From Sphaerochaeta globosa str. Buddy (lineage in GTDB: Bacteria; Spirochaetota; Spirochaetia; Sphaerochaetales; Sphaerochaetaceae): a stretch of DNA of 64,000 bases. The translations under genes and the position numbers were made by a program. The notes beneath the pieces were generated by a model. It made no database searches and was not told where the DNA came from. It was given only the letters and a program-made list of their open reading frames with translations. Below, piece by piece: positions 16,188 through 21,563 of this stretch (the first letter of the stretch is position 1; every line of letters starts with the position of its first letter). The stretch is from positions 1,804,458 to 1,868,457 of the forward strand of contig NC_015152.1 of assembly GCF_000190435.1 (NCBI RefSeq). Direction: 5' to 3'.

Positions 16188-16811
16188 TCATTGCAGTTTT
16201 TTCAGTTCTCGATCGAGTTTCGCTAAAAAACTGGTGTCGTCTTCGCTGAACAGTGAAGCTTCCCTCTGGTTGGGAATCGTTTTGCCAATAACCGGGTCTT
16301 GACGGCTTTTCTCCTCATTTCTCAACGCTTTGCTGTAGGTTGTAGCATCACCAACTCCCCCAAGAACTGCTTCAGCGAGGGTTTGACTGGTTTCTACCAC
16401 AGAAAGGAGTGCTGTTAATTCTGCATCCTGCAACAGAAACAGATGCTGCGTATCTTTCTCGCTGAGAGAGTCGGATGGATGGTGTTTTGCAAACAGCTGA
16501 AGTGCAGCAAACCTTGCCATTTGCTGACCCCGTTTTACCCCTGCCGCAGCCCATACGGCAAAATGCTCTGACTCATCCTTGATTACCACCTGTTCTTCAC
16601 CCAACCGCAAAAGAGCCAGGGCGGCAAGATCGCCAGAGGGCATAAGCAACGGGGCTTGCCCTACCTTGCCAAAAAAATTCGCCTGACCGAGGGGGGTATC
16701 GGCTCTGCCACGGTAATAGCGGGGATGCATTCCCTGGTTATCCACAATACACAGCACATAGCGGTCATCCACAATATCGACGCCGCCCGTTTCATCGTGT
16801 TCTTCTTTCAT
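16188..16811 (-). CDS. Hypothetical protein
   Basis: 207 residues from ATG 16811 (MKEEHDETGG). I recognise no family. The N-terminal part has a small beta-like segment (YVLCIVDNQGMHPRYYRG), then LMPSGDLAALALLRLGEE and WAAAGVKRGQQMARFAALQLF. The C-terminal third is charged and probably helical. No signal peptide or membrane segment. The start is not backed by a Shine-Dalgarno; TATGCT lies 6 nt upstream, so a leaderless transcript is possible. It is divergent from yqeC (93 bp between starts) and ends 13 bp from the response regulator stop. Confidence 0.6.
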   Translation of the reverse strand: MKEEHDETGGVDIVDDRYVLCIVDNQGMHPRYYRGRADTPLGQANFFGKVGQAPLLMPSGDLAALALLRLGEEQVVIKDESEHFAVWAAAGVKRGQQMARFAALQLFAKHHPSDSLSEKDTQHLFLLQDAELTALLSVVETSQTLAEAVLGGVGDATTYSKALRNEEKSRQDPVIGKTIPNQREASLFSEDDTSFLAKLDRELKKLQ

Positions 16812-16868
16812 GAAATGAGCATACCAACTCCTCGTACTTGTACCAGTGATAAAAGAAATCCTCTTTTG

Positions 16869-16897
16869 TTGCAACAAAGCGCAACTAGTGCTACAGT
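16869..16897 (+). promoter_or_regulatory. Strong sigma70-type promoter immediately before yqeC
   Basis: TTGCAA (16869-16874), 17-bp spacer, TACAGT (16892-16897). The -10 ends 7 nt before the ATG at 16905, so transcription should start at or next to the start codon. Confidence 0.65.
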
Positions 16898-16904
16898 TTT
16901 TTTC

Positions 16905-17609
16905 ATGGCTAGTTTGCTTGCTGCACTCAGTACGTACATCGATGAGGACACTCATTGCATCAGCATCACGGGAAGCGGAGGAAAAACCACCACCCTGATT
17001 GCACTCGCATCGCTGTACGCCCAGCGTGGCAAACGGGTTTTGGTCTCTACGACCACCAAGCTCGAGCTCCCTTCCAAACGAGACTACCTTTGCGACACCT
17101 ACTTCAGCGATGAACGCATCCAGCTCTACAAACCATCAAAAGGGCAGAAGGTCTTCTATGCCCTCCAAGGCACAGAGAAGGCACTTGCTCCTCCCCTTGA
17201 AGAGCTACAAGCCTTTACTGCAACATACGATGTTCTGCTGCTTGAAGCTGATGGAGCACAGCACAAACCTTTGAAGCTTCACAGTGAACGAGACCCAGTC
17301 GTACCAGATTTCACCACCACAACGCTGGCAGTGGTCGGTATGTCCGGTTGGGATCAACCTCTTGGCCAATGTTGCTTTGGATGGGAGGGAGATCCCGATC
17401 GTATCGCAGATGAAAATGCCTATCTCCAGTTGTTGACGCATCCACAAGGCGTATTGAAAGCGGCAATAGGAAAAACGCTGGTGCTTTGCAATCAGGCGGA
17501 AAGCACAACGTTTGATACCATGTCCCACCTTAGCTCAAGGTATGACCGGGCACCGCTCTTTTTTGGTTCCATGCAGACCGACAGACTTTTTTACAGGAAG
17601 GTAGTATGA
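16905..17609 (+). CDS. yqeC: Selenium-dependent molybdenum hydroxylase accessory protein YqeC
   Basis: 234 residues from ATG 16905. The N-terminus has a P-loop (ITGSGGKTTTLIALA) and VLVSTTTKL, followed by LLLEADGAQHKPLK and MSGWDQPLG, which are hallmarks of the YqeC family of putative nucleotide-binding proteins linked to selenium-dependent molybdenum hydroxylases. Its biochemical step is not established. It overlaps the following XdhC-YqeB gene (ATGA) and heads the maturation cluster. The frame continues upstream of 16905, but that stretch is antisense to the hypothetical gene, and the promoter position fixes the start. Confidence 0.87.
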   Translation: MASLLAALSTYIDEDTHCISITGSGGKTTTLIALASLYAQRGKRVLVSTTTKLELPSKRDYLCDTYFSDERIQLYKPSKGQKVFYALQGTEKALAPPLEELQAFTATYDVLLLEADGAQHKPLKLHSERDPVVPDFTTTTLAVVGMSGWDQPLGQCCFGWEGDPDRIADENAYLQLLTHPQGVLKAAIGKTLVLCNQAESTTFDTMSHLSSRYDRAPLFFGSMQTDRLFYRKVV

Positions 17610-19408
17610 ATACAATAGTAGTACAGCAGGCTGTCACGCTCATTGGTGAGGCCAAGAAATTTGTGTATATCAGCATCCTTAAAACAGAGGGTTCTGCAAG
17701 CCGAAGCCAAGGCTCGATGGTTGTCGATGAAGAGGGAACCATCACCGGTACCATCGGGGGAGGAGAGACTGAAGCCTATGCACAAAGGCAGGCCTTGGTT
17801 CTCTTACAAAACGGGGAGCCGTATCGGTATCTCAAGTACCAAGTTGCGCAGGCAGAAATTGCCGATGCCGGGACAGTGCACCTCTTGTTGCTTGCCTCTA
17901 CCAACGAAGCTGTACAAACGGCTTTCCTGCAGTTCGGTGTATGGCAAGAACATCAGATGCACCATGTCATGGGCCTACAGATCCTGCCGTCGCTCTCCCT
18001 TTTAGGGCTCTCTGAAGGAGGGGCTACCATCGGCGATGTCCATGCTGAGTTCCTCACCCAAGCCAAGCAAGCACTCGCAGAGGACAGGGCACGCTACATA
18101 CAAAATTCCAACTGGATGTGCCACCTGAGTGTGCCGGTCCAAGCGCATGGCCTGCTGCTTATCGGAGGTGGTCATGTGAATCAAGCGATAGCCAATCTTG
18201 CCCATTTTGTCGGGTTGTCCACCCAAGTGGTAGAGACGCGAAGTGAATTTGCGACAGCGGATTTATTTCCTCACGCCAAGCGACGCGTCGTTGCCCCGAC
18301 CCTTGAAATGGCCCTGGGGGATGTGGACTGCAATCATCATACCGCTTGTATCATCGCAAGCCACGCGTTCGACCAGCAAGCCGCCAAACTGTTGCTGGAA
18401 AAAGATATTGCATACCTTGGGGTACTCGGCTCGCGTCACAAAGCTAAAAAACTTGTTACCTCTTTTCATCTCGATTCTGAGGCACTGGAAAAGCTTTACT
18501 GCCCTATCGGACTTGACTTGGCAAGTGAAACACCCCAGGAAATTGCTGTGTCGGTCATTGCAGAAGTCATGAAAGTATTTCATAACGCAAGCGGTGGCAG
18601 CATGAAGAACCTGGGCAAAAAGGTCGTATTGGTTCGGGGGGGCGGCGATTTGGCAACAGGAGTAATCCTCAGGCTTCATCGCAGTGGCTATCGGGTTATC
18701 GTTCTGGAGACCGAACAGCCGACAGTCATCCGAACCACCGTCAGCCTCGCCCAAGCCATGTATAGCGGTACGGTAATAGTCGAGGGCGTCCAAGCGCAAC
18801 GTTGCAGCAGTGTCAAAGAGGCGTTCAACGTGCTGGATGAGAAGCGTATCCCCATCCTTTGTGATCCTGACATGCAATGCATTGCAGAAGTCAATCCCGT
18901 CTGTGTTGTGGATGCAATTATCGCGAAACGAAATCTGGGGACCCGCATCGACGACGCTCCGTTCGTCATTGCCCTCGGTCCGGGCTTTGAGGCGGGAGTG
19001 GATGCTGATGTGGTCATAGAGACCAAGCGGGGACACAGCCTTGGACGCATCATCAGAAAAGGGTGTGCTATAGCAAATACCGGCATCCCAGGCTTAGTGG
19101 ATGGATTTGGCAAGGAGCGGGTGCTCCACTCCCCCAAAAGTGGAGTTTTCAAAGCTGCATGCAAAGTTGGGGATATAGTAAGTAAAGGCAGTATCATCGC
19201 CTGGGTGGATGGAGAGCCGATTGTCGCCCCGATTGATGGCAAGCTGAGGGGCTTGCTCAATTCGGGTCTTACTGTCAGTGAACATTTCAAGGTGGCCGAT
19301 ATCGACCCAAGGGGAGAAGAGGCTGATCATACTACAGTCAGCGAGAAGGCCTATGCCATAGCAGGAGCTGTACTTGAGGCCTTGGATGCGTTTCTCAACC
19401 GAGCATAA
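17606..19408 (+). CDS. XdhC-YqeB fusion protein for molybdenum hydroxylase maturation
   Basis: 600 residues joining two proteins. Residues 1-~330 are XdhC/CoxI-like: an N-terminal XdhC domain with GSASRSQGSMVV and GTIGGGETEA, then a Rossmann domain with LLLIGGGHVNQAIANLA and GVLGSRHKA. Residues ~335-600 are YqeB-like (EF2563 family), starting KVVLVRGGGDLATG and including ILCDPDM, DAIIAKRN and ALGPGFEAG. XdhC proteins bind and help sulfurate molybdenum cofactor; YqeB is a marker of selenium-dependent Mo hydroxylases. An internal methionine at the junction (MKNLGKK) suggests ancestral fusion of two genes. Overlaps yqeC by 4 bp. Confidence 0.87.
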   Translation: MNTIVVQQAVTLIGEAKKFVYISILKTEGSASRSQGSMVVDEEGTITGTIGGGETEAYAQRQALVLLQNGEPYRYLKYQVAQAEIADAGTVHLLLLASTNEAVQTAFLQFGVWQEHQMHHVMGLQILPSLSLLGLSEGGATIGDVHAEFLTQAKQALAEDRARYIQNSNWMCHLSVPVQAHGLLLIGGGHVNQAIANLAHFVGLSTQVVETRSEFATADLFPHAKRRVVAPTLEMALGDVDCNHHTACIIASHAFDQQAAKLLLEKDIAYLGVLGSRHKAKKLVTSFHLDSEALEKLYCPIGLDLASETPQEIAVSVIAEVMKVFHNASGGSMKNLGKKVVLVRGGGDLATGVILRLHRSGYRVIVLETEQPTVIRTTVSLAQAMYSGTVIVEGVQAQRCSSVKEAFNVLDEKRIPILCDPDMQCIAEVNPVCVVDAIIAKRNLGTRIDDAPFVIALGPGFEAGVDADVVIETKRGHSLGRIIRKGCAIANTGIPGLVDGFGKERVLHSPKSGVFKAACKVGDIVSKGSIIAWVDGEPIVAPIDGKLRGLLNSGLTVSEHFKVADIDPRGEEADHTTVSEKAYAIAGAVLEALDAFLNRA

Positions 19409-19467: not shown

Positions 19468-20592
19468 ATGCGCAGAATCTATTTGGACAATGCCTCCACC
19501 TCCTTTCCCAAAGCCGTGGGAGTAGTTCAGGCAATGAATGACTACCTGACTGAGAATGCAGCCAATCCCGGTAGGGGCAGCTATGAGCATGCCTTCCAAG
19601 CCATGGAAAATGTGATGGACTGCAGGGCCAAACTGGCTAAACTTTTTGGCTCGGACAACCCTCGCCTGGTAACATTCTCGCTGAATGTCACCACTGCCCT
19701 GAACACCTTGATTGCGGGCCTTCTGACACGTGACGACCATGTCTTGGTCAGCGGCGTAGAGCACAACGCAGTCATGCGAGCCCTGCATGTGCATGGTATT
19801 CCCTACTCAATCATTCCGTGCGACAGCGAAGGCAGACTTATCCCTGAGGCGATGCCGGCTCTGATCAAAGCTAAAACCAAGGCTCTCATACTGAGCAGTG
19901 CATCCAATGTAACGGGGACCATCCAGCCTATCCAAAAGGCGGCAATGCTTGCCCAAAGCTACGGACTTTGGACCTGCATCGATGCGGCCCAAGGAACACC
20001 CACCGTCGATTGCCGGCTCCAGCCCACCTTGATCGATGCAATCGCCTTCACCGGCCACAAAGGCCTTGCCGGACCGCAAGGAGTTGGGGGCCTTGTCCTC
20101 TCAGAGCAACTTGCAAACAACATAGTTCCCACCGTCGGAGGGGGGACGGGCAGCAGAAGTGACAGCTTTGCCATGCCCGAAACGTTTCCTGACAGACTGG
20201 AAGCGGGGACACAAAACATTGTAGGAATCGTCGGACTTTCTGCCGCATTGGATTTTCTGCCCAAGAAAGGCGATGCTGATCGTACAAGTTGCAGCCGATT
20301 ACTCTCCTATTTTCTCTCAGACGGCCGAATCACCGTCATTGGGCCCAAAACCATGCAGGAGCGCACCAGCGTACTCAGCATCATCGTGCAAGGATTCGAC
20401 CTTGCCGAACTTGCCTACCGTCTTGGATCGGAATATGGCATCCAGACTCGCTACGGCCTGCATTGTGCTCCCCTTGCCCACCAAAGCTTGGGAACGCTGC
20501 AGACGGGAACCATACGATTCAGCTGCGGTTGGGCGACGACGAGCGAACAGATAGACTATACCATTGCGGCAATGAAGGAGCTTTTATCGTGA
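19468..20592 (+). CDS. Class V aminotransferase, cysteine desulfurase family (Se/Mo hydroxylase-associated)
   Basis: 374-residue PLP enzyme: RIYLDNASTSFPK at the N-terminus, SGVEHNAVMR, DAAQGTP, and the PLP lysine in FTGHKGLAGPQG. It matches the small cysteine-desulfurase-like group (EF2568 type) encoded with selenium-dependent molybdenum hydroxylase genes, which probably supplies sulfur or selenium for cofactor maturation. The expected catalytic Cys loop near the C-terminus is represented by RYGLHCAPLAH. The donor role is inferred from context. No Shine-Dalgarno precedes ATG 19468; a TACACT box lies 6 nt upstream. It overlaps the next gene by 4 bp. Confidence 0.88.
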   Translation: MRRIYLDNASTSFPKAVGVVQAMNDYLTENAANPGRGSYEHAFQAMENVMDCRAKLAKLFGSDNPRLVTFSLNVTTALNTLIAGLLTRDDHVLVSGVEHNAVMRALHVHGIPYSIIPCDSEGRLIPEAMPALIKAKTKALILSSASNVTGTIQPIQKAAMLAQSYGLWTCIDAAQGTPTVDCRLQPTLIDAIAFTGHKGLAGPQGVGGLVLSEQLANNIVPTVGGGTGSRSDSFAMPETFPDRLEAGTQNIVGIVGLSAALDFLPKKGDADRTSCSRLLSYFLSDGRITVIGPKTMQERTSVLSIIVQGFDLAELAYRLGSEYGIQTRYGLHCAPLAHQSLGTLQTGTIRFSCGWATTSEQIDYTIAAMKELLS

Positions 20593-21563
20593 TTAACCCT
20601 ACTTCCTACCAAGCACTGTTGCTTCACGCATTACAAAAAGGCGATGTCATTCGGAAAACACTGATAAGCGGCCCCTCTGTAGGCTGTGAGGAGCTCTCCC
20701 AGGATGGGCAGCTGCTTGCTTGGCGATATGACAGCGAACCGGACTGGGAAACTGGAGAGGTGCTGACAGAACTACTGCAAACCGACGTGGAACTGGTCAT
20801 CTGCGGAGGCGGCCACATCGCTTTGGAGCTTGCAACGTACGCAAGGCGGCTTGGGTATCACACGACAATCATCGATGAACGAAAAGAGTATTGCAATCAC
20901 GAACGATTTCCTTCTGAGAGCTGTCTGTGTGCGCCTTTTGAAGAAGTGTTGGAGTGCAAACAGACGTGGATCCGACCCTACTTCGTCATTGCTACGCGTG
21001 GTCACATGTTTGACCAAGTGTGTCTACAAAAAATTCTGAACCTTCCCCACCGGTATATCGGTATGATCGGCAGTAAAACCAAGGTTGCGGCAACCTTTTC
21101 AAATCTGCTGAGCCTTGGGTTTACCCAAGCACAACTTGATCAAGTCCACTCCCCGATCGGACTTCCCATCAAGGCGGTGACCGCCGCTGAAATCGCCATC
21201 TCCATTCTTGCCCAGATTATCCAGACAGCCCGATTGACACCGCAAGCAGTACAGCTGGACAGGAATCTGCTCACCCACCTTGCCCATAGCAGGCAGAGCT
21301 ACGTCTTGGCCCGGGTGATAGAAAAAACCGGTTCGGCTCCCTGCGAGGTAGGCTTTCAGCTGGTAGTGTTTGAGGATGGAACGGTTGAAGGGACCATCGG
21401 AGGGGGTGCTGTGGAAGCCAAGGCACTAGAGACGGCCAAACAGATGCAAAAAGAGTGCACCATCGCCGAGCAGGTGGCCGTCTATAACCTGTCCAATGCA
21501 AAGGCCTCAGAGCTTGGGATGATTTGCGGGGGGATGGTGCGCGTGCTCTTTCAGCGGTGGTGA
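20589..21563 (+). CDS. XdhC-family protein with permuted domain order
   Basis: 324 residues from GTG 20589, overlapping the previous stop by 4 bp. The Rossmann half comes first: VELVICGGGHIALELATYARRLG at about 60-83, then IDERKEYCNHERFP and IGMIGSKTK. The XdhC/CoxI signature comes last: ARVIEKTGSAPCE and GTVEGTIGGGAVEAKAL at about 240-285, ending CGGMVRVLFQRW. In ordinary XdhC, as in the gene at 17606, this order is reversed. The short N-terminal stretch (1-60) may be the remaining part of the split domain. Likely function: molybdenum cofactor binding or insertion together with its neighbours. The 3' end overlaps femAB-like by 13 bp. Confidence 0.82.
   Translation: MINPTSYQALLLHALQKGDVIRKTLISGPSVGCEELSQDGQLLAWRYDSEPDWETGEVLTELLQTDVELVICGGGHIALELATYARRLGYHTTIIDERKEYCNHERFPSESCLCAPFEEVLECKQTWIRPYFVIATRGHMFDQVCLQKILNLPHRYIGMIGSKTKVAATFSNLLSLGFTQAQLDQVHSPIGLPIKAVTAAEIAISILAQIIQTARLTPQAVQLDRNLLTHLAHSRQSYVLARVIEKTGSAPCEVGFQLVVFEDGTVEGTIGGGAVEAKALETAKQMQKECTIAEQVAVYNLSNAKASELGMICGGMVRVLFQRW

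Follow-up and report, generated by a model that had tools for sequence, protein, structure and literature searches.

Circularly permuted XdhC and a cysteine-less XdhC-YqeB fusion in one selenium-dependent molybdenum-hydroxylase module of Sphaerochaeta globosa

Two XdhC proteins with their domains in opposite order are encoded in one operon of Sphaerochaeta globosa str. Buddy, which raises the question of what the reordered protein is, and whether the two proteins share a task. The window analysed here is a stretch of 64,000 nucleotides (contig NC_015152.1, positions 1,804,458 to 1,868,457), and its features of interest are collected in Table 1. An earlier note on this DNA had described opposite motif orders in the genes starting at 17606 and 20589, and the Pfam domains confirm them: the usual N-to-C order (XdhC_CoxI, then XdhC_C) is reversed in the second gene and normal in the first. 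The first gene, taken in that note for a normal XdhC, does have the normal order, but it encodes an XdhC-YqeB fusion without the hallmark cysteine of the family.

Among the four genes of the locus, all on the + strand, there are 4-bp overlaps between YqeC and XdhC-YqeB and between the EF2568-type PLP enzyme and the permuted XdhC, and a gap of 59 bp between the two pairs. YqeC, YqeB, and an EF2568-type PLP enzyme have been described as members of a selenium-dependent molybdenum-hydroxylase (SDMH) module (PMC2276186, PMC2432076). Using YqeB (TIGR03309) and YqeC (TIGR03172) as markers of this maturation module, we found both in the cluster and both over their cut-offs (349.8 bits against 220 for the YqeB part of the fusion), while the score of the PLP enzyme lies just at its cut-off. 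On the opposite strand, a 255-aa open reading frame (16188-16955, - strand) overlaps the start of YqeC and has no NCBIfam match at E 0.1.

Table 1. Features of the XdhC locus, in positions of the window
Feature	Position	Strand	Basis
YqeC	16905..17609	+	PF19842 E=1.9e-32; TIGR03172 131 bits vs cut-off 73
XdhC-YqeB fusion, 600 aa, normal order A-A'-R then YqeB	17606..19408	+	PF02625, PF13478, TIGR03309
A domain of fusion, GTIGGGETEA kept, CGG cysteine loop lost	17648..17824	+	PF02625 aa 15-73, E=8.7e-14
Rossmann domain of fusion	18152..18568	+	PF13478 aa 183-321, E=2.1e-33
YqeB domain of fusion	18626..19384	+	TIGR03309 aa 341-593
EF2568-type class-V PLP enzyme (cysteine desulfurase / selenocysteine lyase-like)	19468..20592	+	TIGR01977 377.1 bits vs cut-off 377
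Circularly permuted XdhC (A'-R-A), 324 aa, GTG start	20589..21563	+	PF13478 then PF02625; same-length orthologues; AlphaFold2
A' segment (aa 1-65), degenerate A repeat = middle segment of normal long XdhC	20589..20783	+	structure model; clostridial homologues
Rossmann domain R (aa 69-210), GGGHI motif	20793..21218	+	PF13478 E=1.4e-40
Codon of Cys145 (TRGHxxDxxC)	21021..21023	+	Cys in 52/55 permuted vs 3/45 unfused normal-order proteins
Canonical A domain at C-terminus (aa 222-324), GTIGGG motif	21252..21560	+	PF02625 aa 232-288 E=1.9e-16; hhalign
Codon of Cys313 (MICGG), hallmark XdhC cysteine	21525..21527	+	invariant in 52/52 aligned permuted proteins

The permuted XdhC exceeds the gathering scores of both Pfam families (60.2 bits against 24.3 for PF02625 and 139.2 against 29.7 for PF13478). 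The earlier note had allowed that the motif regions of the two proteins might be unrelated. In a comparison of profiles of segments from many homologues (hhalign), however, homology linked the A domains of one order to those of the other (P=100), and likewise the R domains (P=100). The comparison also identified the middle segment of the normal long XdhC as a second, degenerate copy of A (P=97.7). The segments thus run A-A'-R in the long XdhC and A'-R-A in the window protein, where the N-terminal 65 residues are the displaced middle segment; the circular permutation is therefore a rotation. The reversed order and the homology of A that the earlier note relied on are upheld, but the presence of this third segment rules out a simple swap of two domains. 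The pseudo-symmetry proposed there for a complex lies partly within every long XdhC, since its A and A' are repeats of a single domain.

The AlphaFold2 model of the permuted XdhC (pLDDT 92.8, pTM 0.89) predicts that the protein keeps the XdhC fold, with R and two XdhC/CoxI copies, the degenerate A' and the canonical A. Its best structural matches are the long XdhC structures 2we7/2we8 (Mycobacterium smegmatis) and 3on5 (BH1974, Bacillus halodurans), with Z 21-22 for the A'-R portion only; residues 1-216 of the model align with residues 104-331 of 3on5 (Z 21). The A domain, N-terminal in these structures and C-terminal in the permuted XdhC, was matched by sequence alone, as sequence-order structure aligners cannot pair the rotated A. 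The XdhC half of the fusion, on the other hand, aligns with 2we7/3on5-type structures co-linearly (Z 25-28). In the window protein A' is short and its sequence signal weak, and its probable identity comes from the structure model together with the clostridial permuted homologues, which match NF045664 contiguously from about position 105 to the end, with A as a second stretch. The match of the XdhC equivalog model to the permuted XdhC likewise breaks into two stretches. As a result of the rotation, the curated XdhC models score permuted proteins under their cut-offs, in the window 257.3 against 350 for NF045664 and 124.2 against 161.6 for TIGR02964. In the literature library searched, we found no published description of a permuted XdhC, although domain databases may list the PF13478-PF02625 architecture, and the permuted order is widespread yet apparently undescribed.

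The earlier note had proposed a search for the permuted form in other EF2563-type clusters; a search in other genomes recovered 59 single open reading frames of this order in several phyla in the first survey. Full-length orthologues are present in nearly all genomes of the genus of the window and in other Sphaerochaetaceae. The order also occurs in Faecalibacterium and in Lachnospiraceae (Blautia, Dorea, Lacrimispora, Anaerobutyricum), with sporadic cases in other phyla. Bacilli rarely have it: among 200 surveyed, few near-full-length matches turned up. That a frameshift, a misassembly, or a chance match of motifs mimics the permutation has next to no probability: we found nothing in its favour, the structure model is confident, and the same order stands in single open frames in dozens of unrelated assemblies. 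The 59 cases across phyla and the congeneric full-length orthologues rule it out.

In the phylogeny, the permuted clade of the Sphaerochaetaceae is sister to Blautia/Robinsoniella (support 98/86), which suggests that the gene was transferred between gut Clostridia and spirochaetes. The best trees require two changes for the permuted state, and a single origin is not rejected (AU p=0.27). Two-gene versions with the same segment order, [A'-R][A], occur in Bacillota (L070, L091, L110), and two of them (L070, L091) share Cys145 with the permuted XdhC. Such a split pair is a plausible intermediate to the permuted protein; the trees do not resolve this. Besides, of the genomes without a permuted XdhC in which YqeB was looked for, five have a Cys145-type cysteine; all five belong to Bacillota, and YqeB is present in four.

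In a profile search, the permuted protein was the sole XdhC found in 20 of the 24 non-spirochaete genomes. The permuted form can therefore act without a normal-order partner in most Clostridia, and permutation by itself does not imply pairing. This rules out pairing with a normal XdhC as a general law for permuted XdhC proteins, and the pairing proposed in the earlier note thus fails as a general rule. For the Sphaerochaetaceae it draws indirect support from the location of both genes in one operon, from purifying selection on both, and from the loss of the cysteine in the fused copy in every case where the two genes were found together.

One cysteine is conserved in nearly all XdhC proteins and corresponds to Cys82 in Rhodobacter capsulatus XdhC (PMC2997495). 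We take the cysteine of the MxCGG motif at the end of A, Cys313 in the window protein, to be the probable equivalent of Cys82. This hallmark cysteine was present in all 77 permuted proteins that are complete at that point (52/52 in alignment A2), and it was absent from the XdhC half of XdhC-YqeB in 28/28 spirochaete genomes with both genes, namely 21 of the genus of the window and G028, G031, G035, G073, G075, G076, and G078. In G000 no XdhC other than the permuted protein was found to carry the hallmark cysteine. Six fused proteins whose genomes yielded no permuted gene (G022, G023, G026, G029, G038, G056) have kept it. There are two exceptions to this pattern: in the draft genome G007 the XdhC-YqeB lacks the cysteine and a permuted gene was not found, and G074 combines a permuted XdhC with an unfused short XdhC that has a Cys-Gly near the hallmark position. 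On the YqeB tree a single change accounts for the loss, so its association with the permuted gene counts once. Many independent losses are unsupported, and a test of independent pairs, with n=2 pairs, had no power. A conserved replacement cysteine in the fused protein was considered and rejected: a cysteine follows the last strand of A in many congeners, but the window has Ser98 there.

The Cys-less XdhC half is under strong purifying selection, with dN/dS of 0.01-0.20 on A, A', and R, similar to YqeB and to the permuted gene. These values rule out a decaying relic. They also bear on a functional replacement without any pairing, in which the acquired permuted XdhC does all the Moco-chaperone work and the fused XdhC half serves as a fold or scaffold for YqeB. 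The sufficiency of the permuted XdhC in most Clostridia, whose YqeB is a protein of its own, its nearest relatives in gut Clostridia, and the altered motifs of the fused Rossmann domain in several spirochaetes are all in line with a replacement. However, selection on the three segments of the fused half is as tight as on YqeB, and nearly all genomes retain this half although YqeB can stand alone elsewhere, so that we regard replacement as unlikely, if still a serious contender. In one genome (G019, L141:3402-5316) XdhC-YqeB is broken into overlapping frames of 345 and 306 aa, probably by a frameshift.

The permuted XdhC tracks the SDMH marker YqeB, which is carried by 25/30 genomes reached via permuted loci versus 13/34 reached via normal-order or split loci (Fisher p=3e-4, with kinship ignored). 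The genome of the window encodes SelD, a selenium-dependent xanthine dehydrogenase (TIGR03311, 1328.1 bits against a cut-off of 830.45), and a TIGR03313 hydroxylase, all located away from the window, and no SelA was detected in this genome. In Dorea phocaeensis, the permuted gene sits among genes for MocA-YqeB, YqeC, MoaC, MoaA, and the large subunit of a molybdenum hydroxylase. Fusions between genes of the module were also seen: YqeC-permuted XdhC (with YqeC in place of A'), YqeB-EF2568 enzyme, YqeB-MocA, and MocA-YqeB (L053:7359-8756, L044:7332-8741, L169:3417-5408, L166:2226-3677, L052:5680-7134). A Syntrophomonadaceae locus (L101:6903-8543) encodes a fusion that inverts the usual XdhC-YqeB order: YqeB is N-terminal, and an A-like segment without the cysteine and then R come after it. 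A separate A domain was not found nearby.

Adjacency of the EF2568-type gene is not constant, and the gene itself went undetected in some of the genomes with both XdhC genes. SelD was undetected in several genomes with both XdhC genes, and selenium dependence is therefore not universal. Both SelD and the EF2568-type enzyme were undetected in seven genomes, G007 (L130), G010 (L151), G012 (L136), G014 (L131), G018 (L134), G019 (L141), and G025 (L135), all of which retain XdhC-YqeB (dN/dS of 0.02-0.08 for G012 versus G018). The two genes adjoin in G001 and G003, and they may therefore have been lost together. In G012, SelA is present (C1:190460-191767) though SelD was undetected, which points to an assembly gap or an odd selenium genotype.

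The closest characterized system is that of R. capsulatus, in which NifS4 sulfurates Moco on XdhC (PMC2997495). Both systems involve an XdhC-family protein with one hallmark cysteine and a partner PLP enzyme of the NifS kind, and the step is likely the same, i.e., the finishing of Moco ahead of its insertion. The R. capsulatus system differs in the normal order of its XdhC, in the use of sulfur rather than selenium, and in NifS4 not being of the EF2568 type; moreover, R. capsulatus XdhC was reported as a homodimer with no second XdhC partner (PMC2997495). The same fusion as in the window is known from Haloarcula (pNG7241), in a selenium-linked cluster (Haft and Self, PMC2276186), in a report that mentions neither a permuted XdhC nor the loss of the cysteine.

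By analogy with NifS4 acting on XdhC, the permuted XdhC is most likely a Moco chaperone that receives selenium or sulfur for SDMHs. It would bind Moco, and the EF2568-type PLP enzyme, whose gene directly precedes its own, would pass selenium or sulfur to it, with Cys313, and perhaps Cys145, used in the receipt. The finished cofactor would then be handed to hydroxylases, for example the selenium-dependent xanthine dehydrogenase whose gene lies outside the window. The XdhC-YqeB of the Sphaerochaetaceae is most likely a Cys-less partner or docking subunit, acting directly or via YqeB, so that the two XdhC proteins would divide work done by one XdhC elsewhere. The cysteine pattern and the selection on both genes fit such a division of labour, and physical pairing of the two proteins is plausible. 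We give about an even chance to this reading as a whole, in which the permuted XdhC is the Moco chaperone of the SDMH module and the conserved XdhC-YqeB its partner or docking subunit sharing the job.

Two independent chaperones with separate molybdenum hydroxylase clients, sulfur-dependent for one and selenium-dependent for the other, would agree with the view of XdhC-type chaperones as system-specific (PMC2997495) and with the several molybdenum hydroxylases of different families in the genome. Such a separation seems quite improbable to us, with both genes in one operon of the SDMH module and the fused protein devoid of the cysteine conserved in nearly all XdhC. A more specific form of the partnership is a speculative proposal, and on the whole a doubtful one: an obligate heterocomplex of the Cys-bearing permuted XdhC and the Cys-less XdhC-YqeB would act as a single machine for Moco selenation, with its active site divided. 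It would have arisen in the Sphaerochaetaceae after the permuted XdhC came to be shared with gut Clostridia, and members without SelD would run it without selenophosphate.

To our knowledge, selenium insertion into molybdenum hydroxylases is an unsolved step, and a biochemical role has been assigned to neither YqeB nor YqeC. The permuted XdhC, the sole XdhC found in many gut Clostridia and sometimes fused to YqeC, is a concrete candidate chaperone for this insertion. The Cys-less XdhC-YqeB, in turn, offers a natural separation of what needs the cysteine from what needs the fold.
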